A stretch of 64,000 nt of DNA from Chloranthus sessilifolius (taxonomy: Eukaryota; Streptophyta; Magnoliopsida; Chloranthales; Chloranthaceae), in assembly GCA_021018995.1 (NCBI GenBank), contig CM037596.1, forward strand, positions 86,807,184 to 86,871,183. Direction: 5' to 3'. The translations under genes and the position numbers were made by a program. The notes under the pieces are model-generated. The model saw nothing but the letters and a program-made list of their open reading frames with translations. It had not been told where the DNA came from and did not search any database. Positions 9,130-55,733 of this stretch are shown one piece after another. Position 1 is the first letter of the stretch. Each line of letters opens with the position of its first letter.

Positions 9130-11612
9130 TGCAGACCCCATTTCGCACCCGAGAACCCAGCGCCGTCGATGAGGGTGGCACTAAGGCCGAACCCCGAACG
9201 CATTACATAGCATCTCATTGCACAGCAGAAATGAAATAGAACCATACTAACTAACCATCATAACAAATAAGGAAATTAGTACTATCCCTCAAAAGTTTAA
9301 AATGACAGTTCTAATTCCATATCAATACTTATGGAAAGAGAACTGACGAGAACTACCGATAAGGACCATTCCTTACCGAAATATGGTTCACTAAAAAGAA
9401 TTAAGTTACAATTATCATCCAAATTAAGTATTTTTCACATCATCTCAAATCTCTAATCTCTCAACCTAAGGCCCGATATATTTGGCATTGCACACAGAAG
9501 ACAACCCTCAGGTGGGACTTCTTTCAGATCCTCACTAGGTGAAAGATCAGGATCCTCTCTATCTAAGATCTCTATTCCCCCGCTTTCACCTGAACCTGTG
9601 ACATTAATCGAGGAATGAGCTTCATCCAAGCTCAATAGGGAAAAACTCATAACATGCTTATTATAACATCAAACATATATCTTATGGCAAAATGAAATGA
9701 AATTGGTCATAATATATGCACCGTGTGATTATCATGGCATGAAAGACACATGCAATACTTGTTTGAAATTCATAACACATGTTCATATTTTTATTCCAAC
9801 ATATGAAAAGGAAACTTAAAAGTGCTTTACTTAAAGTATTTGAATAAGGAACTATAGCCTCAAGCCCCCGATGGAATACCCACCATCGTCGCTCATATGA
9901 ACAATTTTCACATCTATCCAAGGTCTCATAAAGTTGGACACTTCGCCGAACATATTTATGGTTATACGATAGGAGTCACAATTCACATAGCACAAAGGGT
10001 GTACGGATTGGCCGCCGTACCGGTCACGGATATCCTGCCACGTCAGTCACGATTATACCACCGCGTCGGTCAGGTATTCAGATAGAACCTTAAATCAAAG
10101 TGCATACATATAGTTTATCGCCGTGTAAAGTGATAATTATAGTTTAGCTCAAAAGTCAGAATGAAATGTGAAGATCACACACACATTCATAAATTGGAAT
10201 GAATCTCGAAGGATTCCATACTTCTTACGCAATTCAGTAACATAATGATACACATGCCTTTTCAAATTAGAGTTATAAACAAAATTCACATGATTGAATA
10301 AAAAATTGCATCATAATATAACACGCATGCTAATGTAATAAATGCACATGATATTAAGTGTTCCCTATCTCAAAATCTTAACCAGCATGTGCTCAATCCG
10401 CCGTTTGGGTTTGTCCTTCGTCACACAACACCAGGCCACCTAAACATATAAAATTCATGGTTCACACATTAGAACTATGCTAAACATATTATGACAACTC
10501 CCCTCAAAATCTCACAGTCAAAACTTAACAAAATCCCAAATCTAGCAATTTCAATTGATCGAATCCCTATTTCAATCGGTCGAACTCCTCAAAGCATATA
10601 TCACCTCTCAGTTCGATCGAACGATTCTACTTCAATAGAACGAACACAAATTTGATCGATCAAAAATAATTTTGATCGGTCGAATCCTCACAAAGCCAAA
10701 TGACTACAACATAGTTCGATCGAACGAGTCCTAATTCGGTCGATCGAAATCACATAATTCTATCGGTCGAATCCCTCAGAAGCTAAATGACACTCTACAC
10801 AGTTTGATCGAACGAATTTTGATTCGATCGGTCGAATCCTTAAAACAGGATTTTCTAAAATCTCTGTTCTATACGTTTCGCTCGATCGAGTGTGAGATTC
10901 GATCGATCAAAACACACTTCGTTTGATCGAATTTATTTCGATCGAATGAATTCCTTCAGACTTCGAATTCTTCCTACTCAAGTCCATTTCGATCGATCGA
11001 ATTAATTTTCGATCGGTCGAAATGAACATATTTCATCAGTTCTTGAGTTTTTCGCATTCTTTCTCTTTTCTTTCCCAATTCAAACCTCATTTCTTGTGAT
11101 TCCTTGATCTTAAATTGAATAAAAACCATCACTAATAAAATTTCACAATCTAAGCTTAATTTTTATACCTTGATTTCATCTGAATCCTCGAGCCTTTCTT
11201 CAAAATCGTACTAGGGTTTACCAAGCAGATAGCGGATCATTCGTCACTCCAAACCCCTAGCAGCTAGCCTCGAGAACAGATCACTCTCGTATTCAATCAC
11301 AATTAATATCCTCGATTCACCCTCTCTCCTCTTAACTTCTAATCATAGGTAATAAAGGGTATTGAATGCAAGTGATTAAGGGTATTTATTTTCCCTTTTT
11401 ACCAAGGCATAAGCTTAGGTATGACACTGCTACACCAAGGTTGGTGTATGAGGGTTCACTAACCCATAACCTAACCTACATACACAAAATCCGTTTTGTC
11501 AAATTTGATCTATAGACGTTACATAGTCCATCAGTACGGTCCTCGACGTACGAATCGTCAGGCATGCATACCGAGGCATATAGTTCATAAGTCAGAACTT
11601 AGGGACGTTACA
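9130..11612 (-). repeat. Tekay-like 3' LTR
   Basis: About 2.48 kb, homologous end to end with 53194-55733. On the minus strand it starts TGTAACGTCCC at 11612. The last roughly 90 bp differ from the other copy by an indel. It contains an array of TTCGATCGATCGAA-like motifs at about 10550-11030. Confidence 0.85.
10550..11030. repeat. Palindromic-motif array in the Tekay 3' LTR
   Basis: More than a dozen variants of the 14-bp palindrome TTCGATCGATCGAA (also TTCGATCGGTCGAA, TTCGATCGAACGA) separated by unrelated spacers. Many copies carry C-to-T or G-to-A changes, as expected for methylated CpG sites. The same motif fills 54560-55145 and an internal array at 13541-13945. Confidence 0.85.
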
Positions 11613-11625
11613 TTCTCCCTACCTT
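11613..11625 (-). promoter_or_regulatory. Tekay polypurine tract
   Basis: On the minus strand aaggtagggagaa directly precedes the LTR start TGTAACG. Preceded by aggacgaaaatttctaaggt, the usual context in Tekay/Del elements. It primes plus-strand DNA synthesis. Confidence 0.85.
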
Positions 11626-11976
11626 AGAAATTTTCGTCCTCTAAAATTGATGTAACATGCGGTGAGGCACAAGGGTGGCTTCGTAAGGCACCACACATGG
11701 CTAAACAATCTATTTCATGATGAAAATGTCATCAGACACACATAGTCCACACACAATAAATTCTAGCTAATTCCATTCAGACACAACATTGACCATAAAA
11801 ATTTTGCATACCAAAATTTAGATCATCCGGGCAACCACGCCACCATAGTTATAACAAATGCAAAGTAAACGTGGCAACCATGCCACCATAGTTAAAATTT
11901 ATACATATCTACTCCTCAAAATTAAATATCAAAAGAAAAATCTCTCAAGCTAACAAAAGTTTTTGTTTCAAACTCG

Positions 11977-13294
11977 TCATGCATCAGCCCCTCCCGCCGC
12001 TCCAGTAGGATCCACCGCATCGGTAGGATCCGTCGCATCCTCGGTCTCCTCATCGGCTTGATCCCCGCTGGCCGCCTCCTCAGGCTGTGGGTCCTCAGCG
12101 GCAACATCAGACGTAGAAGCACCAAATACTTGTGCACACATGACCGCCATCCTCTGAACATAGTTGGTAGGGTACATTGCGTGCAAAACATCCTCCACGA
12201 GTAGCTCATAGTAATCAAGGCTTTATTGAGCTGGCGATTACTCTCCTAGATGAGAGTAGCCAACGCCTCATTGGTGATCAGAGCTGCTTGATGGTCTTAC
12301 TATGGCGCACCTTGTGCAGGCTCTTCCTAAGGTTGAGGAGGGATAGGAGGTACTTGAAGAGCTGGTTGAAGGTGTGGTTTTAGCTATTGAAGGTTTTTCT
12401 CCATTGCTTGAAAGTATAAAAGACCTCAATATCGGAGGATTTAGGCTCCCGCAAAGAAACCTTGTGCACAGTGGTCGCCGAATATTCGTCAAACATTGCA
12501 GAAATAAAGCTTGCTTAAGGAATGTAATCCTCGGGCTTTTCTGTCCCTGCCAACAATTTCTTCCTCCCATGTTTTATCCCCTAAAAAATTACAGCAGCCA
12601 CATCAAACCATTTACCCTCAAAAGCGGCAAACAACGCCTCCATCAACACCCCTAATCTCTCAGTTTTATGACAAATCAGGTACAGGTTGCATTTAAAAAT
12701 GGTATCGAGCATCCACATATAGCTTGATAAGTGGGCTCGTCTAATGGCTCGACTAGGTGCAACCCGCCCTTGAGTCATTCTCTCCACTACATAAGGATGG
12801 GTCAAATTTGGAGGATTTGGGGGCAACAGATTAATTCCAGGGCCATGGTCTTCAAAACATTCCAAGGCCTTGCAGGCCATCGCATGGGTAAAAACGTATG
12901 TCTTCCCGTCGATCTTGGTGCAGATGGTGGTTGTAGGGTTAGGGCCATTAAACATGTTTTGGTAAAACAAGCGCACGAGGGGCGGGTAATAGTACGGACG
13001 GATGGGTTTTAAAAGGTTATCCAAACCGGCCTTACCCAAATAGTAAAGTACCCAAGCGTCAATGCCAGGCACATTGGGCATTTCGAATAGCGCCAGATCG
13101 ATGGTATACTCATACGCAAATCCCTTCTCGGCCCACCATTCATTTGGTTAGTCTTGTTGGGGCGCTTGAGAAGGAGTTGGTTGTTCGGCAGTGGGTTGTG
13201 GTGGAGGGTTTGGTGGTGGTTGCGAAGAACCCCCTACGGTCTTAGGCTTCTTCGATGTAGGGGTTTTAGAGGCTAATCTCGTTTTTGGAGGCAT
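11977..13294 (-). pseudogene. Tekay accessory ORF, related to the Athila accessory ORF
   Basis: Start ATG at 13294 (MPPKTRLASKTPTSKKPKT, basic and proline-rich). After one stop near 13147 the frame continues at 13081 (MPNVPGIDAWVLYYLGKAGL) with a globular region containing YYYPPLVRLFYQNMF, THAMACKALECF, and AIRRAHL...MLDTIFKCNLY...MEALFAAFEG. Stops and frame changes follow from about 12580, and an acidic tail (QPEEAASGDQADEETEDATD) ends at 11977. It resembles the 'putative plant transposon protein' type of accessory domain and aligns with the ORF at 30197-30907. It is sense relative to its host element and lies between chromodomain and 3' LTR, with its own TATA-like sequence and motif array upstream. 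Function unknown. Confidence 0.7.
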
Positions 13295-13526
13295 GATTAA
13301 AGAAGGGAGAAAATCTAGGGTTCTTTTTAATTCTCAAAGATTTAGTGCACAACTGAAATCAAAAGCTCAAAGTTAGGGATTTACCAATTTGATGAGGTTT
13401 GGATTTGATTTCTCAAAGAATCCACACGAAATCAATCAATCGTTGATCCCCCAACATGAAAACTCTCAGAAGCCCTAAGGAAACCTCCAAATTTTTCTAA
13501 AAATTTGAACTTAAAATTGCGGTTTC

Positions 13527-13537
13527 TATATATATAT
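13527..13537 (-). promoter_or_regulatory. TATA-like sequence of the Tekay accessory ORF
   Basis: An alternating TATATATATAT run lies 4 bp from the internal motif array (13541-13945) and about 235 bp upstream of the ATG at 13294 on the minus strand. It could be a mere AT microsatellite, but the position fits a promoter. Confidence 0.5.
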
Positions 13538-13540
13538 GCG

Positions 13541-13945
13541 CGATTCGATCGATTGAAATTATTTCGATTGGTCGAAATTCAACTTATAAAGAACGCGTTG
13601 CAATTTCGATTGATCGAAACTAGCTTAAATGAGACTGGGGCCCATATTTCGATCGGTCGAATTTCAGTTCGATCGATCGAAATCCAAAATTTGATCGAAC
13701 AAAAACTTTTCGATCAGTCGAACTTCTTAGGCCAATAAATTTTTTGATCGAACGAAATAAATTTTGTTCGATCGAAATCAAAATTCGATCAATCAAAAAA
13801 TAATTCGATCGAACGAATTTAACAAGCTTTAATTCACATAACATCCACTTTCTGTTAGGATATTTTGATCGGTCGATTTACATCTCGATCGCTCGAAATC
13901 ATATTCGATCGATCAAAAATAATTTTGATCGATCGAAATTATCAG
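13541..13945. repeat. Internal palindromic-motif array upstream of the Tekay accessory ORF
   Basis: About 15-18 variants of TTCGATCGATCGAA (for example ttcgatcggtcgaa, ttcgatcgatcgaaa, ttcgatcgaacgaa), the same family as in both LTRs. The array stops just before the TATA-like run and lies upstream of the accessory ATG at 13294 in its direction of transcription. It separates this gene from the end of pol (chromodomain ends at about 14090). Confidence 0.85.
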
Positions 13946-14640: not shown

Positions 14641-15058
14641 TGTAGACACCCAAATTTGGCCCAAGGCCCGATCGAAACACCTTTCGAGAGAAGCGCATTT
14701 CCAAGCTTTTGATAGCGTGTATGGAATCCTTAGGAATCACCCTAAAGCCTTAGGAATCACCCTAGTCACCCCAGAAACCAACCCCGACCCTTAGAACCCT
14801 ATTCAAACTCTAACCTAACCTTCCCAGGCAAAGATGAGGAGGGTTGCACCAAAACTAGCTACGACCTTCTACAGTGACCAACTCTTATATCATTAAAGAG
14901 TAGAGGTCATCAGCTTTCCAACGAGCTAAGAATCGCCCCAATCAGAGGTATGTATCAGAAGATATGGCAGTCCGCACCCGGAGGGCAGAAAGGTAATTTC
15001 AAGGCAGCCCCCCAGGGGATTTGGTTCGACTATTAGTCGCGCCAGGCTATTTCTCCCC
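14641..15058 (+). repeat. Tat/Ogre 5' LTR, truncated
   Basis: Starts TGTAGACACCCAAATTTGGC like the 3' copy at 47170 and stays homologous to ttctcccca at about 15058 / 47589. The remaining 1.2 kb of LTR (palindromes, TATA) and the PBS are absent, so an internal deletion joined LTR to leader. It keeps one variant half-palindrome at about 15032-15055. Confidence 0.8.
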
Positions 15059-15442
15059 AACCCGAATCCTTGGCCCTTTCCACCTCCCAAGTTCCCCGAT
15101 CAGTGTGCATAGTGCCTTATTTAGGCCCCACCATCTCCGACACCCAATACGCCCCCACCGGTCAAGAGAAGGCAACTTCCTTTTTGGCTCATTTCGGGGG
15201 ATCGGGTCATTTGCCTTGATTTCCGTGGTTTCAATAGATCGAAAGTTCTCCTTCGATTCTTCCGAAGTGCACCAGAACCGTCGCCGCGGGTCTTGAATTA
15301 AGGTACGAGAGCCACCCGAAAAGGGAATTCCAAGGCCTTGGAACCTTTGTTTTTCAAAAAAAAAAGTTTTCATAAAATTCAAAAAAAGTATATAATCAAA
15401 ACCCAAAAAAAAATAATATATTTAGTTTGTGGTGCCGATACA
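15059..15442 (+). other. Leader between truncated LTR and gag
   Basis: No match to the 3' LTR. GC-richer first part, then an A-rich stretch directly before the gag ATG at 15443. No canonical PBS is visible next to the LTR remnant. Confidence 0.5.
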
Positions 15443-17111
15443 ATGGCATCATCTTGCGCTCCGTCGTCCAGTAGGGGAAGAAGGAGGATGATTTTTGGGC
15501 CTTATCCAAGGCACCCTTACCTGACCCGCTCCCGAAGAATGTCGTGGGTAGTGAACCCGGCCTACGCCGATCCCGACTCATCCCCGCCACGTTCTCCAAC
15601 CCACTCCCATTCGGGAGAGGTATTTTCCACCATCCCCCTCACCCAACCCCCCTTTACCGTTACCGGCCCATTTGGCGCCCCCATTTTCCCAACCGATACC
15701 CCCCAAAATATCCAAAATCCTACCCCCCATTCTCCATCGTTTGCCCAAACCATGTCCATGCCAAACCCATTTTTCCAAACCGCATCCATGCCCCAATTCC
15801 CATCATCCCCCCATAGACCCAATCCACCCACATTCACATACACTACTTCCACCCTATCCAATCCCCTGCAAGATCCCTCATCCCTTCGGGTGATGCCCAA
15901 TTATACCGGGGCCATGCCCAATTTTCCACATCCTTCCTCATCATGCCCCCCATCATCCCAAAACACATCCCCTCATCCACCCCATACACCCCCACCTACC
16001 ATGGCCATGCCCAATTATATTGGGGCCATGCCCAATTTTTCCACCACCTCCATCCCCTCTATACCCCATCCACCATCCACATCCCATCCTCCTCCCATGG
16101 CCATGATGGAGGAGATGTTCCAAGCCTACTCCTTATGGAAGGCTTCTCAAAACACCCCCTCTCCTCCACACCCCATGAACCCATCTCACACCCTAGCCAA
16201 CCTCCATGTTTCACTCCCTCATGACCCCCATCAACCTCCCATAATCCACACCATCCAAACCCCCATCACTCACATACCCCAAGGCCCATTGGCCCAAACC
16301 CCCTTTTCCCACACATCTCAGGGCCCCATGGCCCAATACCCCACCATCCATGATCCCCAGCGCCCCATGGCCCAATACCCCACTACCCATCATCTCCAAG
16401 GCCCATTGGCCCAAAACCCCATTACCCATATCCCCCAGGGCCCATTGGGCCAAACCCACCAAATCCAAACCCATCAGGGGCCTATGGTCCAAACCCACCA
16501 ATGGCCCATGGCCCAGACCCAACAGGGCCCATTGGGCTAGACCCATCAAGGGACCATGGCCCAGACCCAACAAGGCCCATCAGACCAGACCCATCAGGGC
16601 CCACAACAAGACCCATCAAGGGCCCATGGCCCAGACCCACCAAGGGCCCATGGCCCCAACTCATCAAGGGCCCATGGCCCAAACCCATCAAGGCCCATTG
16701 GGCTAGACTCACCAAGGGCCCATGGCCCAAACCTACCCAGGCCCATTGGCCCAAACCTATCCAGGGCCCATGGCCCAAACCTACCAGGGGCCCATGGCCC
16801 AAACCCATCAATGGCCTATGGCCCAAAATGACCAAGGGTTCATGACCCAAACCCAAACTCCACACTCATACCTTCCACAAAACCCCCAACACCTAACCCA
16901 ACCTTCACAGCTGGGTCAAACCCATGCCATCCCCCAAACCCAATTCCCCCATGGCCCCACACCCCAAGGCCACCCCCAAACCTTCCCTCACACCCAATGG
17001 CCCTATCCGACCCCACTTCAAAACCAAAATCCAATCACCCAACAAGCCTTTTCACACTCCCAATGGGCTCACCCAACCCCTACTCATGTCATTCCCACCC
17101 AGCCCATGTAG
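15443..17111 (+). pseudogene. Tat/Ogre gag N-terminal Pro/His/Gln-rich region
   Basis: ATG at 15443 (MASSCAPSSSRGRRRMIFGP) opens a basic then proline-rich region. From about 16270 to 16850 it is a tandem 24-bp repeat encoding octapeptides of the type GPMAQTHQ. The frame is stopped at 16538-16540 and shifts inside the repeats; the frame from 16722 continues to 17111. Such low-complexity N-terminal extensions before gag are seen in Tat/Ogre elements; function unknown. Confidence 0.65.
16270..16850 (+). repeat. 24-bp coding tandem repeat in gag
   Basis: Units of the form GGCCCATGGCCCAAACCCAT plus caag repeat about 20 or more times with variants (ggcccattggccc). One frame encodes GPMAQTHQ-like octapeptides; the other frames are also open, which gives several long spurious ORFs on both strands. 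Confidence 0.85.
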
Positions 17112-24857: not shown

Positions 24858-25470
24858 ACACTTCGCGCAGTCCTCGCGAAGTCCCAAGACTTCTCAAACA
24901 AGTTCTCGCATAGTAGAGTGACAGAAGAGCTTCAGAAGCCTTGAGTCACGCAGCTCTCACGAAGTTTACAAGTTAAAGGTCGGGTAGCTCCTGTACAGTT
25001 CAAGAAGACCCCTCTCACCTCACGCGATTCGTTCAGAATAGCTGAGGAGAGAGAGCTTCAGAATCCTACCTCGCGCAGCTGTCGTGCAGTAGCCGCGGGA
25101 TGCAAATATCAAGAGAACCTGTCGCGCAGTTCAGAAAAGCCTCAAAGCCTTGAGAGGATCCTTGCGAAGATCCATTAAGAAGTGAAGTTCTCGCGCAGTT
25201 CTTGCGCTGTTAAAAAAGAAAGCAGTCTCGTAAAAGCCAGAATTAGCCTCGCAAAGTGAAGAAAGCTCACGTAGTTCCTGCGCTATTCACAATTATCAAT
25301 CCAACTGCACGATGCCCAACCCAGCGAGAGCTTAACTGTCTACCTCGCGACTGCTCAAAGCATCAAGAAGCTGCAACCACGCGACGCCTGAAGCTTTAAT
25401 GTTAAACTCAACCACGTGAAGACTAGAGCTGCCGCGCGACAAGTCTGGGAATCGACTGCAACCTGGCGAA
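24858..25470. repeat. CTCGCG-word array in the Athila 5' LTR
   Basis: Dozens of words such as CTCGCGCAGTTC, TCGCGAAG, CTCGCGAC with many C-to-T / G-to-A variants (ctcacgaag, cttgcgaag), consistent with decay of methylated CpG. It ends about 180 bp upstream of the LTR TATA box. Repeated in the 3' LTR (about 35645-36250), internally (29447-29635), and in the second Athila-like LTR (59330-59960). Confidence 0.85.
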
Positions 25471-25653
25471 GCTTTGAACTCTAACTTCCATCATTTTGTA
25501 GAGGACTTTTTGGGGATTTCTAGTGATTAGGGCATGCATTCCCACACTCAAATATCTATGCACGCACCCCGAGGCATCCAAGGATCATTAGTCAGCCACG
25601 TGGCATCGTTAAAATTAGGGTTTCTTAACCCTAATGTTCCGCCACACCACTGT

Positions 25654-25662
25654 CATATAAAC
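25654..25662 (+). promoter_or_regulatory. LTR TATA box (Athila-like 5' LTR)
   Basis: CATATAAAC in GC-richer context, matched in the 3' LTR by CTATATAAAC at 36433-36442. Likely start of the element RNA about 30 bp downstream. Confidence 0.6.
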
Positions 25663-27179
25663 CTAAGCCTGATTTAGGTTTAGAAGAGTAGAGACTTAGA
25701 GCGAGACTTTGAGGCAGACTTGGAGTTAGATTTTAGAGGAGGAACTCCTATCTCAGATTTTATAATTTTCTTTTCCGTTCTTGTTTTTTCGGTAACTATA
25801 AGCAGTTTCTTTTTCTTCTTTTTCTTCTCTCCATGGCCCAGCACTTGCTGGCCATGCCTTTGTATGTCTATTGAGGTTAGATTAATGGATTTTTTGTAAT
25901 AGGATTTGTACTCTTATGGGATTTGTGTATTTGTGAGCTGTTCTGTGCAAGGCTACTACCTTGTGATCCGCCATTGCTTTGGCTGTATTTCAAAGCAATG
26001 GAGGACTGATTCTAAGGACCTACTTAGATCCAAGTGACCTGTGTGTCTTGGCTATCACGGTCCTAGACAGCCTTAACCCCACCACAGGACCCACTAGATC
26101 TGAAATTCTCATGGGAGCCTGAGCTGGTAGCCTTGTGACCATGGTGGTAGCAGCAATTAACTTGTTTTGTCTTGGGCTCCGTGAGGAGGATAGCCTCTGG
26201 GATAGTCTATGACCATTTAAGTGGACAGGTTATAGCCTTAGGGTGAATCCAATCCGCCGATCCAAGATGGATCCTTCTTCCCCGAGCTTGAGCTGTTAAG
26301 CCTGGTAGGAGATTGTGCAGAGGCAGACTCCCCATATATTTGTATAGACCCGTCATCAGATGTTAGATATGATCTGGTTATGGAGATTGTAGACTTGTGA
26401 CTTGACCATTGCAGCCCCACTCAAGCAATGGATAGCTAGATCTAAGGTGGTACTCAATCTCTTGCTGGTTCTATGTGTCTGGGCTATCATGGTCCTATAC
26501 AGCCTTAGCCCCACACATAGAGCTTTAGAGGATGAGGTTCCCTATGGATTCCTTGAGCTTGTAGCCTGGATGAAGTAGTGCCTACAATGATTAATTTGTT
26601 TTGACCCATCTCTGGACTGTGGTTCCCCTATTGGATAGCCTGTGACCATTTAAGTGGACAAGTTATAACCTTAAGGGATTGGATCATGGCACAGGGATGA
26701 GTTGAATTCTTTCTCCTCTTTGGTGATAATGTAGCCATTAGACAGGATTTCCATAACATCAGATCTGAATCTGAGTTACAAAACTCCTCTTATCTAGACT
26801 CAATAACCTACTTCTCACCCTTTTATATTTATTTTCCACAATCCATCCATCTTCTCAACCCTTTCTGTAGTTAACTCATTAGACTATCTTAGAATACTTA
26901 GAATAAGTGACCTTAAACTCCCCTCCTTTTAGGACTGCCAGATCTGTAGTCAGGTCTGGAGGGACTACTAGAGATGGCTCCTTTGGAGCTGTAGATCACC
27001 TTTCCCTGTGGGACAAACTCTTACTTATCAAAACTTGCTACAAATGGACCCTGTATCTTGCAGGTCTAGTTTTTCTCAGTTGTGCTGATTCCATCCCCTG
27101 TTTTACTCTTTCTTTGATTTTAAATTATTTTTACCACCAACAAATAAAGCAAGCACACTTAGAGTTCGCAACAAGTTTT

Positions 27180-27197
27180 TGGTGCCGTTGCCGGGGA
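27180..27197 (+). promoter_or_regulatory. Primer binding site, tRNA-Asp type
   Basis: TGGTGCCGTTGCCGGGGA is complementary, with one mismatch, to the 3' end of plant tRNA-Asp. This PBS is usual in Athila elements. It lies 6 bp after the LTR end. Confidence 0.85.
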
Positions 27198-27525
27198 TAG
27201 ATGATCTATTAGTAGACCCTTAGTTTTTGTATTTTTAGTATTCTTTGTAAATGTGAATAATTGATACTGCTGATAATTTTGAATCTTTCTTGCAAATCTA
27301 GACAACAGCAGAGAAGGACATTGGACTGCATTTGGAGATTAGCTACCTCTGTTTGCAATTCTCTAACCTTTAACACTCAGTCTCGTTTCTTTGAAAATTA
27401 CATAGCAGTTGTTTAATATAGTTATAGATGTAAGTCTTCTTAAATTAGCTGTAAATTTGTTAAAAAAATTCTGAGTCAAGTGCAATGTGCCTGCAAGGAG
27501 TTGTCCCTGCTGGTGGTGTGTTTGT

Positions 27526-29446: not shown

Positions 29447-29635
29447 AGCCGTCGCGCGGTTTTGAAGATGTGGCTTGGCTCCCTCTCACGCAGATCATAA
29501 GGAACGGCTATGCTCTCGCGCGGTTCAAACGCTGTTGTGTGAATTCCTCGCGCAGTTTGGATGAATATCCAATCTCGCGACCCACTCACTTCTATCTCGC
29601 GAGCAGAACATTTCAAAGCGCGCCAAGCCTCGCGA
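29447..29635. repeat. Internal CTCGCG-word array upstream of the accessory gene
   Basis: Words GTCGCGCGGTTT, CTCGCGCGGTTC, CTCGCGCAGTTT, CTCGCGACCC, CTCGCGAGC, CCTCGCGATC run up to the TATA box at 29638. The words are the same family as the LTR array, and here most CpGs are intact. Confidence 0.85.
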
Positions 29636-29637
29636 TC

Positions 29638-39207: not shown

Positions 39208-40743
39208 TCAAAGGCCCAACTCGCGCTTCAAAGCGCTAATCTCAGCATAAAGATCATCCTCTCGGACATTCCTCTCAGTCAGCCAACGACCATGCAGGCT
39301 TTTGAACCTCTTCCGAGAAGAGTCGGCGTCTCCAAAAGCAACGCCCAGTGATTCTTTCAAACGGAGAACCTCGCTCTCCGCTGCGTTTGCTCTAACCCTC
39401 TTGCATGCCAAGAGTTCTTGCAGGACCCTCTTCTCATCCACCAATAGCTCGATATGGGTCCGAAGCGCCACTTCTTTCTTTGTCCAAGGGCCTCCAGTAT
39501 CAATAATCTCTGACAAATTCGGGTTGTCAGTGGCAGGCCGCTCATTCAATAGCCAGGCCTCATACTTAGGAGAAGTGCTAACTGAGTCCCCCTGCTCAAA
39601 ATCGCACATCAAGGTCGACTGTCACGTCTCCCAAAGAGCAGTAATCTGGTCTATGTCTTCAGAGGATCCCCTAGAAAAGATCAAATCATATAAGGGGGGT
39701 CTGGCATCACAAGGCACCTGCTGAGGGCAGCCAAATTGACGCAACACCCGAAATGGGAAGTAGAAGGTACTGCTGGTCAATCTGAGGAGGGTAATACCCT
39801 CATGGTCTCTAGAACAAATCACTGGGAAGGTCCGATCCAACCAAGAAAGCCTCCATGTCAGCTCAGCATCGACCAACCAAAGTCTTAGAGCCGATGTATC
39901 ACCCTGGGGGAACAAATGGCATCTACCCAAAAAACAGCGGGCCACTTCACCTCGAGCAACATAGAAGTGAGGCACGGGCCCCAAAACAGAAAAATGCTCA
40001 CCCAGCCAGACCTGGAGCAACAAGGGGCATCCCGGAAGACCCTCCACTTTGCCCAAGGCAAAAGAATCAAGGCATTGGTACAGCTCGGCAAGCATCAAAT
40101 GCATCATGGACCGGCCCGCCTCCACCTCCATCAAAATATCACAAACTGCCAATGAGAAGCTTTCTCCCCCGGTGTAGAAGAGGATTTCAGAGATGAGACC
40201 AAGGGCTAGAGCTTTCAAGTTAAAAACATTCCTAACCGGCAATTTTCGGAGACTTTTATCACCGAAAAGTTCTTTGAGGAATTTTAACGAACACCTGGCG
40301 GGCCCCCCAATGAGACTTTTCTCATACTCGGATTTCTTCAAACCTAGAGTAAGGTGAACGGATCTAGAATACCCTGGTTTAGGCATAACTCTTGCAAGGT
40401 CCCTATGAAGCTTCAGGCCAGACAGATTGGATAGCTCCTCAAGAGTTGGGGTCAACTCTCGCTTCCCAAAACGGAATACATGAAGGTTCACATCCCAGCA
40501 CGATGCGGCATCATGAAGGAGCTCCCACCGAGGAGGAATCGCTAAGAAAGAAGGAAGGCGGGATAGCCCAAGGCGCCCCAAGTCGGCGAGCTCACTCTCG
40601 TTCAAACTCCCAAACCAAGCCGCTGGGAACTTGGACCCCAAGCCCGACAAAGAGGATACATTGGCTCCGAACCCTCCACGTAAGGGACGGTTAGGAGGCG
40701 GATCCATGAACGTACAAGGATCTTTTGGGAAGATAAGAATCAA
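39208..40743 (-). pseudogene. Tat antisense accessory ORF, DUF7745-like plus coiled coil
   Basis: ATG at 40743 or, more likely, 40707 (MDPPPNRPLRGGFGANVSSL). The frame is open for about 370 codons to a single TGA at 39619-39621, then in the same frame continues to 39208. The body (HVFRFGKRELTPTLEELSNL, RKLPVRNVFNLKALALGLIS, LMEVEAGRSMMHLMLAELYQ, GCPLLLQVWLGEHF) resembles DUF7745 proteins, which are common as extra ORFs of plant Ty3/gypsy elements. The C-terminal 130 residues (IELLVDEKRVLQELLACKRV, AESEVLRLKESLGVAF) form a coiled coil. A TATA-like site and palindromes lie just upstream. It is close to intact: one stop in about 510 codons. Confidence 0.7.
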
Positions 40744-40844
40744 TGTAGGAAGATGGACCTGCCTGGGAGAAACAAGAGCTAAAAAATGCCGATCAAAGGA
40801 GCCAAGTCAAACAAAAAAGAAACAATTTCTGGGTCAATTCGGGC

Positions 40845-40874: not shown

Positions 40875-41044
40875 CTGGAGCAACTAATAGTTGCGCCAGC
40901 ACATTGCTGCCCCTATTATTGGCCTGGCGCAACTAATAGTTGCGCCAGTGCATTTGAACCCCCATGTTGGCCTGGCGCAACTATTAATTGCGCCAGTGAA
41001 ATTTCCTTAGAACTTTAGCCTGGCGCAACTAATAGTTGCGCCAG
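40875..41044. repeat. Tat palindrome array A (4 copies, 48-bp spacing)
   Basis: Copies of a 25-bp palindrome with core GCGCAACTAATAGTTGCGC begin at 40875, 40924, 40972 and 41020. The 23-24-bp spacers differ in sequence but not in length. Directly upstream of the antisense DUF7745-like ORF. Confidence 0.92.
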
Positions 41045-41422
41045 ACTAAAACCCCCCCTCCAGCCATTTCAAGGCCGAACTGAAGAGGGGACTTCTGCCC
41101 AATTTTGTTGGTTTTTTATATATGTCAGCATTTCTGACCATCAATGATTTGTGGATTATTTTATTATGTGCAGGATTGATCCTACATTGAGGCATGCGAC
41201 CCAAAAGGCCACTTTCTAAAAAGAGTATGAAGCAGGCACATCCGGCAGAGAAACAGATTTGATACCAACCAAGCAGAGAATAAAAATCAAAGCAAGACCA
41301 TTTCCCAAATAATTATAAAAATCATCAAATTTGTCTCTCAAAAGTGCCACACCAACCATTCTCCAAATTGTTTAAAAACAGATCCCAAAATAAAATTCAA
41401 AATGCGGAAGAAAACTAATGGC
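41045..41422. other. Intergenic, between the two antisense genes
   Basis: No coding frame. It probably contains the 3' UTR and terminator of the PMD gene and the upstream boundary of palindrome array A. Confidence 0.5.
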
Positions 41423-43899
41423 CTATTCCTTGCTCGCTCCCTTAGACTTCTTGCGACGGCGAGTGGAGCTCTGATAGGTCCTCATGTCCCCCACTCTAGA
41501 CCACGCCTGCGAAATCCTGCTGAGTAGGGAACGTGACTCCTTAGTCCGCGCACGCTGCAAGGTACGGTCAAGAACAAAGTTAGTCAGGGGCCAATAATAA
41601 TGAAAAATAATGATGAGAGAGGAGTTGAGCAGCCAGGAACTCACCGTCTCCACCTCCCAAAGCTCTGCCAGATGACGATGGTACTCCGCATATTCCATAG
41701 CCGAGTTGAAGTCCTACGATACAAAATTCAATTGTTAGAACACCCCTGAAAGCATTTACCGAAGGAAACAAAAATAAAGGAGAGGAGGCTCATCTAAAAA
41801 CTCACCCCGGGGACCACCTCAGAAGGAGGAACGGGGCCGCGGCGGCAGAGAGCCGCGCCTGTCAGTCCACATCGGCACAGAGATCGGAGAGGAAGCCATC
41901 ATCCAGACGCCGAAAGGTCCCATAAGCTACAAATGGACCCCCCACCAGGGACACCCACCTAAGAGGTACCCGACGGACCTGCACCTGATGAACCCTACTT
42001 GGGGACCCGCCTCGAAGGACCCAGCACTCGAGAGGGATCTCTGACTCGGCCCACTTTCATCGTCCGAACCATCTCCCGAAGCAAACTGTGAACCAAACAA
42101 GAATCTATTCAGATAAGACTCAGGCTGAGTAAAAAGCAAAAGAGAAATTAATCCAAGCTGAGAAGAGGTTACCTTACCAAGTGGGCCCCCGAACGCAAGG
42201 AAATTAGCGCTAGGGACAAAGCGCGGCAGGATGAACCGGTAGGGGAGGCACTCGTACCAAGCATGATAATCCCCAGGCACATGGAGAGCGCAAATCGGGA
42301 ACCCATTGTTGAAAAAGGCCGCTGTCAACTCCTCAATGCTGCTAGCAGGGCTCCAAACGTCAGCCGGTGGATCCACAGGTATGGCGTAGTAGCCTTGGAA
42401 CTGATGCACCACCCTCTCCCCCAAATAGTAGCATTTGGCCCACGCTCCATAAAAGAAGACGACGCGGCAGTTATTGAAAAGGCGGGAGGCACCCACGGCT
42501 GCTCGGTCCCAGAAAGGGGACGTCAGGTATGGATCGGGGAGGATCTGCTCAAAATCAAAAGGGGACTAAATAAGCAACGCCTCAATCAAAAGAAATGCTC
42601 AAGCTGAAAGTAAACTAGGGTCGAAATTATCACCTGCTCAGGCACCATCAAATCAAGCTAGGACCTTAGGCCCATCTCCAGGAGCTTTAGGCCCACGTCG
42701 TGGCATCGGGCCTGATGCCAGTTGCTGAGAAGGGGTTAGGTGAGCACCTCTGTGAAAAGGAGTGGGCCCCCAGGGTGAAAGTGGTGGTATCCCCATACCT
42801 GAAAAAAGGGCATGGCACGAGAGCAGGTCAGCAATATAAATGGATCAATCAGAAAGGAAAAATGATGAGTAAATGATAGCGATAACAAGAGCGAAGGAGT
42901 GAAGAATTACCTCCAGAACGGCCCAAAATCCCATGGCAGACTTCGAATCCCCGGTTGTGACCTGGGATAAATTGTACATCAGCCAGGTGTATCCCGCCCC
43001 TCCCTAGTCATGCCTGGGAACATCGCCCCAATTATCTATCACACTCAACAGGGCCAGGCTGACCCGTCCCCCACTGGCATTTGTAAAAATAGTCTTGCCT
43101 AGTAGGAGTAGGAGGGTGATGCGAGCTAGAACGATCGCCCGCTCTGGCATGGTGTAAAGCACCCGATTTGGCTGGCCCAAGTCCACCAGCTCATCAGCAG
43201 AAAAGAGGGAGGTCAGCCAGGACATCTTGACCTCTGTGCCATGGGTCTGCCCACGAGGGGGATAGGCCCCGATCAACCGTATGATGTCCTCCCGGCTCGG
43301 CCCCTCCAAGGTGGATATCGGGACTCCGCCGATCCTAATGCCAGTAATCATGGCCCAATCAACGGGCGTCAGGGTCAGCTCGGCATATGACATGTGGAAC
43401 GTTATGGTCTCGGGACGGAACCACTCAATGAGGGCCTTCAAATAGGCGGCATCCGCCCTCATGGCAGGGCAGGACAAGAACTCCCCGAAGCCCACCTACT
43501 CCAACAAAACTTTCACCACGGGAGGGACATAAAGGTAGAACTCGTGGAAATCAAGCCACCCCCCGCGGAACACAATGTTGGGCAGCTCCTGCACCCAAAA
43601 TATATATATATATATACACATCAGATAGCAGAGGTGATAAAAAAAAAACTGCACAAAGGAAGGAAAGTGAACCTATCTTTTACCTTGCCCGCTATTCCGA
43701 AATTGGAGATGTGAGTGTGCTGCTGATGGAGGAGGCCGACCCGGGCAGCCTCACCCTGCATCTCGAGCCATGGGCCCGCTCTCCGCTCCACCCAGAGGAA
43801 TTGCTCTCCTCGCGGACCGTACACTATCTCGGGCCCCTCCTCGTGGCCCTCCTCGGGAATATGCTCATCACCGCCCGACATGCTAGGGCAACAAAGCAA
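41423..43899 (-). CDS. Tat antisense plant-mobile-domain (PMD) gene, seven exons, decayed
   Basis: A spliced gene on the strand opposite to gag-pol. Exon 1 43899-43684 (MSGGDEHIPEEGHEEGPEIV, VYGPRGEQFLWVE), exon 2 43588-42911 (GGWLDFHEFYLYVPPVVKV, ALIEWFRPETITFHMSYAEL, LTPVDWAMITGIRIGG), exon 3 about 42797-42640 (VWGYHHFHPGGPLLFTEVLT), exon 4 42544 to about 42185 (RLFNNCRVVFFYGAWAKCYY, RVVHQFQGYYAIPVDPP), exon 5 about 42089-41927, exons 6-7 about 41720-41423 (RISQAWSRVGDMRTYQSSTR, RRRKKSKGASKE). Each boundary has GT/AG and phase 0 where checked. The 'WFRPET.TFH....LTL.D....TG..IGG' pattern is the PMD/aminotransferase-like family, seen in host MAIN-type proteins and in transposons. At least five in-frame stops show decay. 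The basic C-terminus suggests a nuclear protein. Confidence 0.7.
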
Positions 43900-45238
43900 T
43901 CACGTTAGAACAGATCAATAATAAAGAGCCATGATATCCTATGCTGTAAAAGGGGAGGTAAGTAGGCTCACCTTTCCCCTTTCTTTTCACATATTAAAAA
44001 AAAAAAAATGAATGAGAGATACACATGCAAAAAAAAACAACAACAAAAACAACAAAAAAAAAATCCTTTTTTAGGCTGAAAACGCAAAACAAAAAAAATC
44101 TTTCCTTCAGAAAAGGATAATAAATAAAATTTTCCCTTCCTACCTTTGAAAATAAAGCAAGTTAGAAGCAAATAAAATCGCTCTTTTATCACTCTAAAAT
44201 CTTTCTTTCTGTTTAGAAAAGAAGGGGGGTCCTTCATTTTTATGTTCCTAAAATCATAAAAACAAAAAAAAATCCTTTCTTTATGCCTCTAAAAACATAA
44301 AAACAAAAAAAAAGTCTCTTTCCTTCTGTTTAGAAAACCCAAAAGACAAAAAGGTCCTCCATTTTTTATGTTCCTAAAATCATAAAAACAAAAAAAATTC
44401 CTTCCTTTATGCCTCTAAAAACATAAAAACAAAAAAAAAGTCTCTTTCCTTTTGTTTAGAAAACCCAAAAGACAAAAAGGTCCTCCATTTTTATATTCCT
44501 AAAAACATAAAAACAAAAATCCTTTCTTTATGCCTCTAAAAACAGGGAACAAAAAAAAAAATCTCCTTCTATCATGTAAAAAAGAGAGGGGGATATATAT
44601 AAAAAAAAAAAAGAGGAAAATCCTTTTCATGGACCATAAAATCAAAAAAAAAGAGAAAGAAAAAATCCTTCTTACTATAAAAAAAACAAGAAGAAGAGAG
44701 AAGGCAAACACCGAAAATCCTCCTTTTATGCCCATAAAACAAAAAAAAATCCCTCTTTTACAAAAAAACTAAAACAAAAAAATATATATTACATAGATCA
44801 ATACTTTAGTTTTTAAAAAAAAAACAAACAAAACAAAAAAAAAACATATATATTATGCATTAAAAAAAAAAAAAAAAAAAAGCATAAAACAACCAAAATA
44901 AGACACCATTCATGGAATATCATCACCATATTATAAATAAATATGCTCACAAGAAAAATAACCCATTTACCATCTAGAAATGCAAGATCATGATTATATT
45001 CGCATAAAAAAAGCAAGAAAAATCAAGAAAAAAGAGTTATAAATGATTATCTTATGAGGAAGAGGGCGTTGGTCTAGCGTAGGCCCGTGATCGATCCACA
45101 AGCGAAAAAACGGCAAAAGGCATGCTAGAGGCAGCGCAAAGGAACCCTAAGGGGGAGGGGGAATGGTTTTCGGTTTCAAAGAGGAAGAAGAGGGGGGGAG
45201 AATTCAAAATGAGGCCCCACTGCCCGAGTTCGGGCTGC
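43900..45238 (-). other. Leader of the PMD gene, A/T-rich tandem repeats
   Basis: Between the TATA box (45239) and the ATG of the PMD gene. 43980-45020 is low complexity; a unit of about 125 bp beginning GGTCCTCCATTTTTATGTTC is repeated with starts near 44228, 44353 and 44479. 45020-45230 is a C/T-rich leader on the minus strand. A leader intron is likely but not resolved. Confidence 0.55.
44228..44560. repeat. Tandem repeat, period about 125 bp
   Basis: Three head-to-tail copies (third partial) of a unit containing tcctaaaatcataaaaacaa, tgcctctaaaaacataaaaa and gtttagaaaacccaaaagac. Confidence 0.85.
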
Positions 45239-45256: not shown

Positions 45257-45377
45257 CTAGCGCAACTAATAGTTGCGCCAGGCAAATATTTGCCTTCCTT
45301 TGGCTTGGCGCAACTAATAGTTGCGCTAGCCTATTTTGGGCCACATAATGGCCTGGCGCAACTAATAGTTGCGCCAG
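45257..45377. repeat. Tat palindrome array B (3 copies, exact 48-bp spacing)
   Basis: Same 25-bp palindrome as array A, beginning at 45257, 45305 and 45353; spacers are 23 bp and unrelated in sequence. Directly upstream of the PMD gene TATA box. Confidence 0.92.
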
Positions 45378-47156
45378 GTACTCTGGCCGGGTCATAGGCC
45401 TGGTATGGGTCAAATGGGAAGACCGGTCCCCCCACTTCCTTTTGCTTGGGTGTTCGGTCACTTCTGACCGATGGACGCGCTCCCAAGGCAGCTTTTCGGT
45501 CATCCTTCAATTTGCCCAGGAAGCCGTGCTAAAATAAGGACGGGCCAAGGTCAACAAGCACCACGGTCTTACACACAGGGAAAATCCAGAAAAATACAAT
45601 CCCCACAAGAGAGCCAGAAATATTCACGAGAAAAATCTACGTAAAACTAAAAAAAAATCCGTATAAAACTCCAAAAAAATTTGCATAAAAATCCAAAAAT
45701 TCACATAAAATAATAACTCCAAAACTCCAAAAAATTCACATAAAAATCCAAAAAATTCACATAAAATAATAACTCCAAAACTTCAAAAAATTCGCATAAA
45801 AATCCAAAAATTCACATAAAATAATAACTCCAAAATTACAAAAAAATTCACATAAGATAATAGCTTCAAAAATTAAAAAAAAAATGCCATAAAATAACAG
45901 TTGAAAAATTCAAAATTGTAGAAAAATCGCCAGCGCACAAGCATAAGGCGGTGAAACGTCAATATTTTATCAGCAATGCAGCTGTGCCACATCAAGGTCT
46001 TGAGTCGGAGGTTCGCCTCGGATCTCTGGATCCCGCCTTAAGGCAGGAGCAACGGTGTCGGTCTCGGTCAAACAATCAATGTTTCGATCAGGTCAACTCC
46101 ACCGCTAAATCTTTGCGACAAGCGCTTGGACTCATATGGACTTAAGTGCCTTAAGATTCAGATTCTCCGTTGGAAAAGGTCAATCGTTGGTTGAGACCGA
46201 CCTGGTGAGAATGAGATTGTGTCAATCGAACTATGTGCAACCATGCATTCAGAAGGGTTCATTTCCCTTTTATTTTCTACAGGCTTAAAACCTGTATGGG
46301 CAGCAGTATCCCTATAAAGTGTACGCCATGCGTATGGGTATCCATATGATGGTCATTTGTCCCCGTAAATTGTATCCGGGTGGGTCCAGGTCGGGGCTTC
46401 CATCGCCTTTCTTGTTGCTTATTGCCCTCGATGGGTGCATGATTATGCATAGTTAATTGATGATTATGATCATTGTCAACAGAGGCCAGGATTGAATGCC
46501 CCCTTTTTGAAAGGTGCCCGATATTTGGCTGGATCTGTTCAAGGAAGTTGAAACTGGATACTCTAGGTCATGCTAAGCTGAGGGATGCTTTCAAAAAATG
46601 GCACGTACCCCCAAAAAGCGTTGTGACATCTATTCACTTCATTCGGGTGGTCATGCTAAATAAACTTTGGGATCGATGGGTTCGCCCAAAGATCTCAAAC
46701 CCTGCTTTCAGTAGGGGCACCCGCGAATGATCCGATGGGGCCATCAAATGCCTTGTAGGATTGGAAGCAAACTATGGAGCCTTGCATGTGTTTACTTCGC
46801 GCCTATCTTTGAATGTGGGTCGATCACCCCTCTTACTCACGAAGCTGTTGCATTCAGAATGAATTTTAAACATCAATCACCTTCAAATCATCTTGAGAAG
46901 CGGAAGTGTTTCCCAGCTATTGGGCTTTCGCAACTCATTCCACCTCGATTATGCCCAGTAATGTCGCTAAGCGCTTGGGAACCGATTACCTCGAGAAACG
47001 AATGATTAGCATGGCACTCCAGGGATTTCATTTTCTCACCATGGTACTCACCTGATGTTTGAAGTTCATTCTGAATGCAGCAGACCCGTCAGTAATGCCT
47101 TGGGCCTCTTCGGATGTCTCTTTTCTTTGGCATATGATCATTAGTGAACGGATACC
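45378..47156 (+). other. Tat/Ogre 3' untranslated region
   Basis: 45580-45920 is an A-rich tandem repeat (unit with ttcacataaaataataactc plus caaaa). 45930-47156 has no convincing gene. It contains an inverted repeat (gcattcagaatgaattttaa at about 46851 and its complement at about 47055-47080). Confidence 0.5.
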
Positions 47157-47169: not shown

Positions 47170-47597
47170 TGTAGACACCCAAATTTGGCCCAAGGCCCGA
47201 TCGAAACACCTTTCAAGAGAAGCGCATTTCCGAGCTTTTGATAGCATGTATGGAATCCTTAGGAATCACCCTAAAGCCTTAGGAATCACCCTAGATCCCC
47301 CAGAAACCAACCCCGACCCTTAGAACCCTTTTCAAACTCTAACCTAACCTTCCTAGGCAAAGATGAGGAGGGGTGCATCGGAGCTAGCTATGACCTTCTA
47401 CAGTGACCAACTCTTATACCATTAAAGAGTAGAGGCCGTCAGCTTTCCAACGAGCCAAGAATCGCCCCAATCGGAGGTATGTATCAGAAGATATGGCAGT
47501 CCGAACTCGGAGGGCAGGAAGGTAATTTCAAGGTGGCCCCCCCCGGGGATTTGGCTCGACTATTAGTCGCGCCAGGCTATTTCTCCCCAGAAATAGC

Positions 47598-47804
47598 CTG
47601 GTGCAACTAATAGTTGCGCCAGGCATAAATTTTGCCTGGCGCAACTATTAGTTGCGCCAGGCCAATTCTCCCAGATTTTAAGACTGGCGCAACTAATAGT
47701 TTCGCCAAGTTTAAAGGGTGGCCCCCACCCTATGAGCTAACTTCCAGCACTATTCCTCACTGTTTTACTGTGCTTTTTCCTGGCACAACTATTAGTTGTG
47801 CCAG
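47598..47804. repeat. Tat palindrome array C in the LTR (4 copies)
   Basis: The palindrome begins at 47598, 47636, 47684 and 47780; intervals 38, 48 and 96 (twice 48) bp. A variant with TCGACTATTAGTCGCGCC lies just upstream at about 47553-47576 and also in the 5' LTR remnant. It sits about 280 bp upstream of the LTR TATA box. Confidence 0.9.
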
Positions 47805-53191: not shown

Positions 53192-54559
53192 ACTGTGATG
53201 ACCAAATTTCGACACTGCTGAAACCCAACATCTCATTGCACAGCGGAAACAAAGTAGAACCATACAAACTAACCATCATAACAAATAAGGAAACTAATAC
53301 TATCCCTCAAAAGTTCAAAATGATAGTTCTAATTCCATATGAATACTTATGAAAAGAGAACCGACGAGAACCACCGATAAGGACCATTCCTTACCGAAAT
53401 ATGATTCACCAAAAAGAGTTAAGTTACAATTATCATCCAAATTAAGTATTCTTCACATCATCTTAAATCTCTAATCTCTCAACCTAAGGCCCGATATATT
53501 TGGCATCGCACACAGAAAACAGCCCTCAGGTGGGATTTCTTCCAGATCCTCACCAGGTGAAAGATCAGGATCCACTCTATCTAAGATCTCCGTTCCCCCG
53601 CCTTCACCTGAACCTATGACATTAATTGAGGAATGAGCTTCATCCAAGCTCAATAGGAAAAAACTCATAACATGCTTGTTATAACATCAAACATATATCT
53701 GATGGCATAATAAAATAAAATTGGTCAGAACATATGCATCGTGTGATTATCATGGCATGAAAGGCACATGTAATACTTGTTTGAAATTCATAACACATTC
53801 ACATTTTTATTCCAACATATAAAAAGAAAACTTAAAAGTGCTTTATTTAAAGTATTTGAATGAGGAACTATAGCCTCAAGTCCCCCGATTGAATACCCAC
53901 CATCGTCGCTCATATGAACTATTTTCACATATATCCATGGTCTCATAAAGTTGGACACTTGGCCAAACATATTTACCGTTATACGGTAGGAGTCACAAAT
54001 CACACAGCACAAATGGTGTATGGATTGGCCGCCGTACCGGTTATGGATATCTTGTCACATCAGTCACGGTTATACCGTCGCGTCGGTCGGGTATTCACAT
54101 AGAACCTTAAATCAAAGTGCATACATATAGTTTATCGCCGTATAAAGTGATAATTATAGTTTAGCTCAAAAGTCAGAATGAAATGTGAAGATCACACACA
54201 TATATAAATTGGAATGAATCTCGAAGGATTCCATACTTCTTACGCAATTCGAAAACATAATGATACACATACCTTTTCAAATTAGAGTTATAAACAAAAT
54301 TCACATGATTGAATAAAAAATTGCATCATAATATAACACACATGCTAATGTAGTAATTGCACATAATATTAAGTGTTCCCTACCTCAAAATCTTAACCAG
54401 CATGCGCTCAATCTGCCATTTGAGTTTGTCCTTCGTCACACAACACCAGGTCACCTAAACATATAAAATCCATGGTTCACACATTAGAACTATGCTAAAC
54501 ATATTATGTCAACTCTCCTCAAAATCTCACAATCAAAACTTAACAAAATCCCAAATCTG

Positions 54560-55145
54560 GCAATTTTAATTGATCGAATCCCTATTTCGATCGATCAAAA
54601 CCCGATTTCGATCGATCGAACTCATTTCGATCGATCGAACTCCTCAAAGCATATATCACCTTTCAGTTCGATCAAATGATTTTATCATTTCAATTGAACG
54701 AATACAAATTCGATCAATCGAAAATAATTTTGATAGGTCGAATCCTCACAGAGCCAAATGATTACAACATAGTTCGATCGAACGAGTCCTAATTTGGTCG
54801 ATTGAAATCACATAATTCGATCGATCGGAACTATTTCGATCGGTTGAATCCCTTAGAAGCTAAATGACACTCTACACAGTTCGATCAAACGAATTTTGTA
54901 GAGTGTCATTTAGCTTCTAAGGGATTCGACCGATCGAAGATTTTTCGATCGGTCGAATCCTCAAAACAGGATTTTCCAAAATCTCTGTTCTATAGATTTC
55001 GATCGATCGAGTGTGAGATTCGATCGATCGAAACACACATCGTTCGATCAAAATTCATTTTGATCAAACGAATTCCTCCTGACTTAGAATTCTTCCTACT
55101 TAAGTCCATTTCGATCGATCAAATTAATTTTTGATCGGTCGAAAT
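54560..55145. repeat. Palindromic-motif array in the Tekay 5' LTR
   Basis: Same TTCGATCGATCGAA family as 10550-11030; additional copies around 54590-54640 and 54900-54955 are absent from the 3' LTR. Confidence 0.85.
54846..54927. repeat. Perfect inverted repeat, 30-bp arms, 22-bp loop
   Basis: Arms 54846-54875 and 54898-54927 are exact reverse complements (gaatcccttagaagctaaat... against ...atttagcttctaagggattc). The 3' LTR has only one arm at about 10782-10815, so the second arm arose after insertion. Confidence 0.92.
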
Positions 55146-55733
55146 GAATAGATTTTATCAGTTCTTGGTTTTTCGCATTCTTTCTCTTTTCTTTCCCAAT
55201 TCAAACCTCATTTCTTGTGATTCCTTGATCTTAAATTAAATAAAAACCATCTCTAACAAAATTTCACAATCTAAGCTTAATTTTTATACCTTGATTTCAT
55301 CCGAATCCTAGAGCCTTTCTTCAAAATCGTACTATTGTTTACCAAGCTAACAGCGGATCATTCATCGCTCCAAACCCCTAGCAGCTTGCCTCGAGAATGG
55401 ATCGCTCTCATAGTCAATTACAATTAATATCCTCGATTCACCCTTTCTCCTCTCAACTTCTAATCATAGGTAATAAAGGGTATTGAATGCAAGTGATTAA
55501 GGGTATTTATTTTCCCTTTTTACCAAGGCATAAGCTTAGGTATGACACTGCAACACTAAGGTTGGTGTACGAGGGTTCACTAACCCATAACCTAACCTAC
55601 ATACACAAAATTCGTTCCGTCGGATTTGATCTGTAGACATTACATAGTCCATCGGCACGGTCCTCAACATACGGATCGCTGGGCATGCATACCGAGGCAT
55701 ACAGTTCATAGGTCAAAACTCAGGGACGTTGCA

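Follow-up and report, generated by a model that had tools for sequence, protein, structure and literature searches.

Palindromic motif arrays at the LTRs and accessory-gene promoters of nested gypsy retrotransposons in Chloranthus sessilifolius, and their possible recognition by element-encoded proteins

We analysed a 64,000-nt stretch of the Chloranthus sessilifolius genome (assembly GCA_021018995.1, CM037596.1:86,807,184-86,871,183; genome 2.17 Gb), called the window below, and compared it with further stretches of the same genome, which carry the numbers L009, L010 and so on up to L061. The window holds three long terminal repeat (LTR) retrotransposons nested in one another: a Tekay-type element on the minus strand contains a Tat-type element on the plus strand, which contains an Athila-type element, also on the plus strand. 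The lineage names are those of an earlier note on this DNA and agree with the Pfam matches, which comprise gag, protease, reverse transcriptase, RNase H, integrase and a stretch resembling a chromodomain. Each of the three elements has its own palindromic motif, clustered at the LTR and at the accessory gene, and the features concerned are the following:

Tekay-type element: LTRs near 9.2-11.6 and 53.2-55.7 kb, minus strand
Tekay 3' LTR array: 10550-11021, minus strand, 17 sites of the TTCGATCGATCGAA type about 20 bp apart, from the motif scan
Tekay 5' LTR array: 54565-55143, minus strand, 21 sites, from the motif scan
Tekay internal array upstream of the accessory gene: 13541-13945, minus strand, 15 sites, from the motif scan
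Tekay TATA-like sequence TATATATATA, between the internal array and the accessory gene: 13525-13538, minus strand
Tekay accessory gene: 12584-13294, minus strand, with its ATG at 13294; the longest open piece, at 12584-13147, resembles Transposase_32 with a score under the Pfam cutoff
Tat-type element: 14641-48822, plus strand, inside Tekay
Tat array A, upstream of antisense gene 1: 40876-41043, minus strand, four 23-bp palindromes 48-49 bp apart
Tat antisense gene 1 region: 39211-40743, minus strand, in-frame ATG at 40707, plant mobile domain 39625-40806, in-frame stop near 39622
Tat array B, upstream of antisense gene 2: 45258-45376, minus strand, three palindromes 48 bp apart
Tat antisense gene 2: 41420-43881, minus strand, ATG at 43881, plant mobile domain 43007-43495
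Introns of Tat gene 2, GT-AG type, at least four identified by eye: 43683-43589, 42910-42799, 42633-42545 and 42172-42086, minus strand
Tat 3' LTR array: 47552-47803, plus strand, five palindromes spaced less regularly than in A and B; TATA-like sequence at about 48085
Athila-type element: about 24.6-38.0 kb, plus strand, inside Tat
Athila 5' LTR array, CTCGCG type: 24862-25471, plus strand; TATA-like sequence at about 25655
Athila 3' LTR array: 35607-36251, plus strand
Athila internal array: 29447-29636, plus strand, with TATATAA directly after it at about 29639
Athila accessory gene: 29937-30904, plus strand, ATG at 29937; open piece 30191-30904, Transposase_32-like below the Pfam cutoff

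The arrays are genuine and not a product of chance, as indicated by motif scans of the whole window in comparison to 20 dinucleotide shuffles. The Tekay motif TTYGATCGRWCGAA, a 14-mer allowed up to two mismatches, occurs at 54 sites (shuffled mean 1.75, maximum 4), and all of these except a single outlier at 15230 fall inside the three Tekay arrays (53 of 54). The Tat palindrome, with up to four mismatches, was found 13 times in the window and never in the shuffles, and the Athila motif CTCGCGMRG, with up to one mismatch, 52 times (shuffled mean 12.25, maximum 20). An unbiased search of the window for clusters of 8-mers placed the Tekay and Tat arrays among the strongest; the remaining strong cluster was a coding tandem repeat in Tat at 16.3-16.9 kb, and the weaker ones were mostly A-rich repeats. 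The Athila arrays, which are weaker per site, were not returned by this search of the window; their best 8-mers, counted with one mismatch, were more frequent in each of five Athila arrays examined than in any of 20 base shuffles. The Tekay motifs are also regularly placed, with spacings of 18-23 bp in 11/16 cases in the 3' LTR, 10/14 in the internal array and 13/20 in the 5' LTR. The shuffle-controlled scans thus uphold the proposal of the earlier note that each element repeats a motif of its own in clusters, both within the LTR and ahead of the accessory gene.

The accompanying claim, that the arrays lie close to TATA-like sequences, applies to the internal arrays of Tekay and Athila, which adjoin one, and not to the LTR arrays, which by eye lie roughly 90-280 bp upstream of the nearest one. 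In Tat the site at array A reads TATATG on the coding strand, and the sequence at array B is TATATAAG in the window but TTTAAA in the aligned copies. The start codons first suggested for the Tat genes had to be moved, since position 40743 is actually TTG (the in-frame ATG is at 40707) and the ATG of gene 2, by eye, is at 43881 and not at 43899. Regarding the introns of gene 2, the best-matching words for its splice sites keep GT or AG in 39 of 40 cases in five copies; the search for these words covered the whole of each locus, and two of the matches were poor. Gene 2 would most simply be expressed from an antisense promoter of its own, because the sense genomic RNA would carry antisense-strand introns through retrotransposition. 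In the 5' LTR of the window Tat most of the array is deleted and the stretch from the LTR array to the leader array is gone, so that the LTR array is visible only in the 3' LTR. The deletion, at 15045-15060 (compare L025:8594-8760), looks like recombination between motif copies.

The exact Tat 23-mer occurs 8901 times in the genome, and the reversed control does not occur. From 100 listed places of this 23-mer we picked 11 sites by motif spacing and took 19 stretches; the presence of the motif at these sites is therefore not independent evidence, although its arrangement is. At four sites both genes are accompanied by all three arrays, A, B and that of the LTR (L010, L011, L012, and L021 with L022). 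At one, array A is missing and the LTR array and B are present (L013 with L014), and at six the LTR array is joined by a second array 0.8-1.1 kb past the LTR end (L015, L017, L019, L023, L025, L027). An independent sample consisted of 20 gene-1 copies chosen by protein similarity alone and rank-spread over 110 scored matches. At least two motifs were present upstream in 17 of them, the exact motif in 16 and TATATG in 18, and the spacing between motifs was exactly 48 bp in 31 of 45 instances. In short alignments of 5, 6 and 7 stretches covering the three Tat arrays, motif columns were identical in 565/616, 690/745 and 1516/1679 comparisons (0.90-0.93) and non-motif columns in 2009/2822, 1610/2247 and 2536/3688 (0.69-0.72), a contrast that is somewhat inflated because the motif columns were chosen by similarity to the motif.

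The stretch L013, taken for Tat, also contains a second Tekay subfamily (Tekay-2), which has the LTR motif AATCGATTAATCGATT and whose own internal promoter is deleted there. Tandem pairs of this motif occur 629 times genome-wide and those of the reversed control not at all. Two Tekay-2 copies were selected, L054 because it holds two pairs at a distance of 3.3 kb and L055 for its closeness to two pairs separated by 10 kb. The Tekay-2 palindrome is present at 14 sites at the accessory promoter and 13 in the LTR of L054, and at 12 and 12 sites in L055, with zero and one motif of the window subfamily (Tekay-1), respectively. In L054 the internal array is immediately followed by TATATATATAAAA, and in L055 there is no clear TATA at that point. 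The accessory proteins of the two subfamilies are 46 and 42% identical for two pieces of L054 and 48% identical for L055. Six further Tekay-1 copies (L056-L061) were rank-spread over 150 scored matches, and four of them, L057-L060, have 9-14 motifs upstream of the accessory gene followed by TATATATA 8-15 bp past the last motif. The visible part of the LTR holds 4, 6 and 2 Tekay-1 sites in L058, L059 and L060, and in L057 no LTR array lies within the stretch obtained; at least two motifs were thus seen at both sites in three of the six further copies (L058-L060).

A diverged second Athila (Athila-2) lies next to the nested elements:

Athila-2: plus strand, starts at about 58960 and continues beyond the window into L009
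Athila-2 LTR array, CTCGCG type: 59351-59901, plus strand; TATA-like sequence at about 60137
Athila-2 internal array: L009:3958-4312

Both arrays are present, without a canonical TATA right after the internal one. The Athila-2 accessory protein is 56% identical to that of Athila-1, the element nested in Tat, and CTCGCG arrays are kept at both places, as they are in L052, one of five arbitrary genome stretches that we sampled (L049-L053). Within this sample Athila arrays were found in L051 and L052 and none in L049, and for the repeats in L050 and L053 no link to an accessory gene was found. Taken together, one motif is common to LTR and internal arrays in the Tekay, Tat and Athila of the window, in L054 and L055, in Athila-2 and in L052, in the Tekay copies L058-L060 and in the Tat copies L010, L011, L012 and L021 with L022, with L061 as the exception. 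Arrays at both the LTR and the accessory promoter, which the earlier note suggested seeking in relatives, are present in relatives of all three lineages.

Both Tat genes match the plant mobile domain PF10536 above its gathering cutoff of 34.9 (gene 1 with 49.4 and gene 2 with 53 bits). The other accessory proteins match PF20167 (Transposase_32) below its gathering score of 45 bits (Tekay 19.4, Athila 29.4, Athila-2 19.2, L013 21.1, L055 16.7) and can for this reason only be called Transposase_32-like; the accessory piece of L054 gave no PF20167 match in the Pfam scan. The Tekay and Athila accessory proteins are homologous to each other (E 6e-10, 25% identity over 151 residues), and therefore the three accessory genes are not all unrelated. 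Together with the equivalent design already published for Sireviruses, this speaks against the view that three unrelated elements each invented it. Across the accessory pieces, Pfam scans returned plant mobile domain, DUF7745 and Transposase_32, and otherwise chance-level matches. The Tat gene-1 and Athila proteins gave nothing at E 0.001 in a protein database that is presumably poor in plant relatives, and searches of solved structures gave no or chance-level matches. Exact motif scans were negative in viral contigs for the Tat and Tekay motifs and in bacterial genomes for the Tat motif. In the plant genome itself the accessory genes are abundant, with 12675 and 40792 first-look candidates for two families.

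Wherever it could be measured, the accessory genes are under purifying selection, as judged from the ratio of nonsynonymous to synonymous substitution rates (dN/dS). Between the window and its copies, two pieces of Tat gene 1 had ratios of 0.17-0.35 and 0.13-0.18, and an exon of gene 2 had 0.10-0.18, all at dS 0.30-0.85; a further gene-2 exon gave 0.04-0.11 at dS 0.55-2.5, which is partly saturated. The ratio was 0.18 for the Athila accessory gene and 0.05-0.33 for the Tekay-2 accessory genes, the latter with dS up to 2.0. Among comparisons of one Tat copy with another, the closest pair, L010 and L022, reaches 0.62.

How could these observations be connected? In the mechanism that we propose, each lineage would encode a nuclear accessory protein, with a plant mobile domain in Tat or of the Transposase_32-like kind in Tekay and Athila, and would express it from a promoter of its own. 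The protein would bind the family-specific palindrome clustered at the promoters of its element, probably as a dimer or cooperatively, as the palindromes and the Tekay spacing near two helical turns suggest. The result would be an autoregulatory loop in which the LTR and the accessory gene are activated or de-silenced. That an element-encoded nuclear factor acts in this way on its own arrays has, to judge from the sequences, an even chance of being right; the accessory protein as the binder, its nuclear location and the activating or anti-silencing outcome are each presumed here, and repression would be another conceivable effect. An element-borne factor that recognises the arrays best explains the sharing of motifs between LTR and accessory promoter, the conservation of motifs relative to their flanks and the joint difference of Tekay-2 at both sites.

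Several results weigh against this proposal. The extra array of the Tat relatives lies in the 5' leader (before gag in L025) with no accessory gene after it, which led us to drop the idea of an accessory promoter at every array. Of the 20 Tat gene-1 copies, three fall short of two motifs (L041 none, L032 and L040 one each), and the Tekay copy L056 is degenerate, with a triplicated promoter block, only three sites upstream and three in the LTR. The copy that speaks most clearly against strict motif matching is L061. Its internal promoter has a third palindrome, with GCGTATAATT half-sites (15 sites against a shuffled mean of 1.37 and a maximum of 6) about 420-760 bp upstream of the accessory match, and its visible LTR keeps three Tekay-1-like sites; the mismatch could reflect promoter exchange or turnover in progress. 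Athila-1 and Athila-2 share one motif class at only 56% protein identity, and hence the motif does not always change with the protein. Furthermore, no DNA-binding domain or fold was shown for the accessory proteins, and two AlphaFold models were unusable (mean pLDDT 31 and 49, from alignments of 6 and 4 rows). The co-variation of array and protein that the earlier note called for was accordingly seen in one pair of Tekay subfamilies, which differ at both sites together, and not in L061 or between the two Athilas. Its broader reading, that each element recognises its own arrays, gains from the arrays of the relatives, the signs of selection, the motif conservation and Tekay-2, and loses from the leader arrays and L061.

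Alternatively, host transcription factors may bind the arrays at both promoters while the accessory protein has another role. Host factors bind repeated LTR motifs in other plant elements, e.g. Tnt1, and neither the Tat leader array nor L061 needs a matched protein. We nevertheless consider this explanation rather unlikely: within a single genome the two Tekay subfamilies diverge jointly at LTR and accessory promoter, and the Tat palindrome, at 23 bp, exceeds most host sites in length. On the side of host factors, the Sirevirus study reports database matches of the motif mainly to stress-related host sites (PMC2829016).

The arrays could also be chromatin or DNA-structure elements (CpG islands, insulators, hairpins or targets of siRNA) that require no dedicated protein. 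The motifs are palindromic, and CpG is near expectation inside the Athila and Athila-2 arrays (98 vs 89 expected, observed/expected 1.10, and 59 vs 63, 0.94) and depleted outside them (81 vs 466, 0.17, and 35 vs 529, 0.07). The Tekay arrays are rich in CpG (observed/expected 2.4 and 3.1), and Sirevirus arrays border CpG islands (PMC2829016). However, the Tat arrays are not CpG-rich (observed/expected 0.56-0.81), for which reason CpG retention was dropped as a feature common to all three elements, and a CpG island needs neither sequence specificity nor a spacing of exactly 48 or about 20 bp, which makes this explanation improbable. Independently of it, the CpG shortage of the Athila elements (25521-35600, and 60001-64000 with L009) exceeds that expected for coding DNA. 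A passive origin, in which a functionless repeat multiplied by tandem duplication and was passed between LTR and internal promoter by gene conversion, would fit the 49-bp tandem unit at 40875 (84% matches), the triplicated block of L056 and the loss between LTR array and leader array in the window Tat, but is strongly disfavoured by motif identity above flank identity in all three Tat arrays and by the position of the array relative to the gene, which is kept in most copies tested.

Binding of element-encoded factors to their own arrays would have close precedents. In Sireviruses an element-specific palindrome forms one cluster in the LTR, ahead of the TATA, and a second upstream of ENV, where 77 of 79 linker motif copies are located, and an internal ENV promoter was suggested (Bousios et al. 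2010, PMC2829016). The elements analysed here likewise repeat one palindromic motif at the LTR and ahead of the accessory gene, with the exception of L061. Sireviruses, however, are Ty1/copia elements with ENV-like genes, whereas ours are Ty3/gypsy elements, as indicated by Pfam matches that include gag domains, RNase H of the gypsy type and a stretch resembling a chromodomain. Their accessory genes are of the plant mobile domain or Transposase_32-like kind, one gene pair is antisense with introns, and the motif turns over between subfamilies at both sites. The VANC21 and VANC6 proteins of VANDAL elements bind the motif arrays of their own element, and binding and demethylation are proven (PMC5735166). 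Here, too, the non-coding arrays are family-specific and differ between families; unlike them, VANDALs are DNA transposons with short non-palindromic motifs and, as far as Pfam scans without a direct comparison to VANC tell, another protein family, and in our elements binding is presumed. By analogy with VANC, several plant gypsy lineages might use self-recognition in general as a module for self-activation or anti-silencing, with DNA-binding factors of two families, a palindromic array at each promoter, and factor and array turning over together between subfamilies; we hold this extension to be possible, if somewhat more tentative than the mechanism for the individual elements.

Host plant mobile domain proteins act on genes with a common promoter motif: 25 of the 26 genes commonly downregulated in MAIN and MAIL1 mutants have one. 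Gypsy-borne PMD-A1/A2 clades are known, and anti-silencing by captured domains was speculated for MULE elements (PMC7156037, PMC5418596, PMC9289625). The Tat genes belong to the same domain family, gypsy-encoded members included; MAIN and MAIL1 differ in being host proteins, and the available portions mention no element-borne array for plant mobile domain systems. Grande has an antisense gene between pol and the 3' LTR, as Tat does, with its own promoter and a nuclear product, and about half of recent Retand elements have tandem arrays in the antisense-gene region (PMC7264820, PMC11963269). The Retand gene encodes Transposase_28 and not plant mobile domains, and no motif matching the LTR is mentioned at the accessory promoter in the text available. 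The Sirevirus architecture, gypsy plant mobile domains, antisense accessory genes with their own promoters and the idea of anti-silencing by captured domains are already in print. A search that reached few subscription journals brought up no description of gypsy elements whose LTR and accessory-promoter arrays match, nor any of a link between motif turnover and the protein, and the accessible literature gave no function for retrotransposon-borne plant mobile domain genes. The arrays provide a concrete candidate DNA target for each accessory protein, and the two Tekay subfamilies, whose proteins are homologous and whose palindromes differ, would permit a clean test of specificity, and so of the question whether sequence-specific self-regulators are encoded by LTR retrotransposons.

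Some further repeats were noticed. In L053, clusters of AAATTCGA-type and TCGCTCAA-type words at 7082-7370 and 5642-5793, with no accessory-gene match there, are possibly a further promoter array. The gag-side reading frame of Tat, at 16255-16855, contains Pro/Gly-rich tandem repeats of 24 and 39 bp, similar in L023, L026 and L027, and long A/T-rich tandem repeats lie at 44030-44560, in the leader of Tat gene 2, and at 45631-45915, between array B and the 3' LTR.

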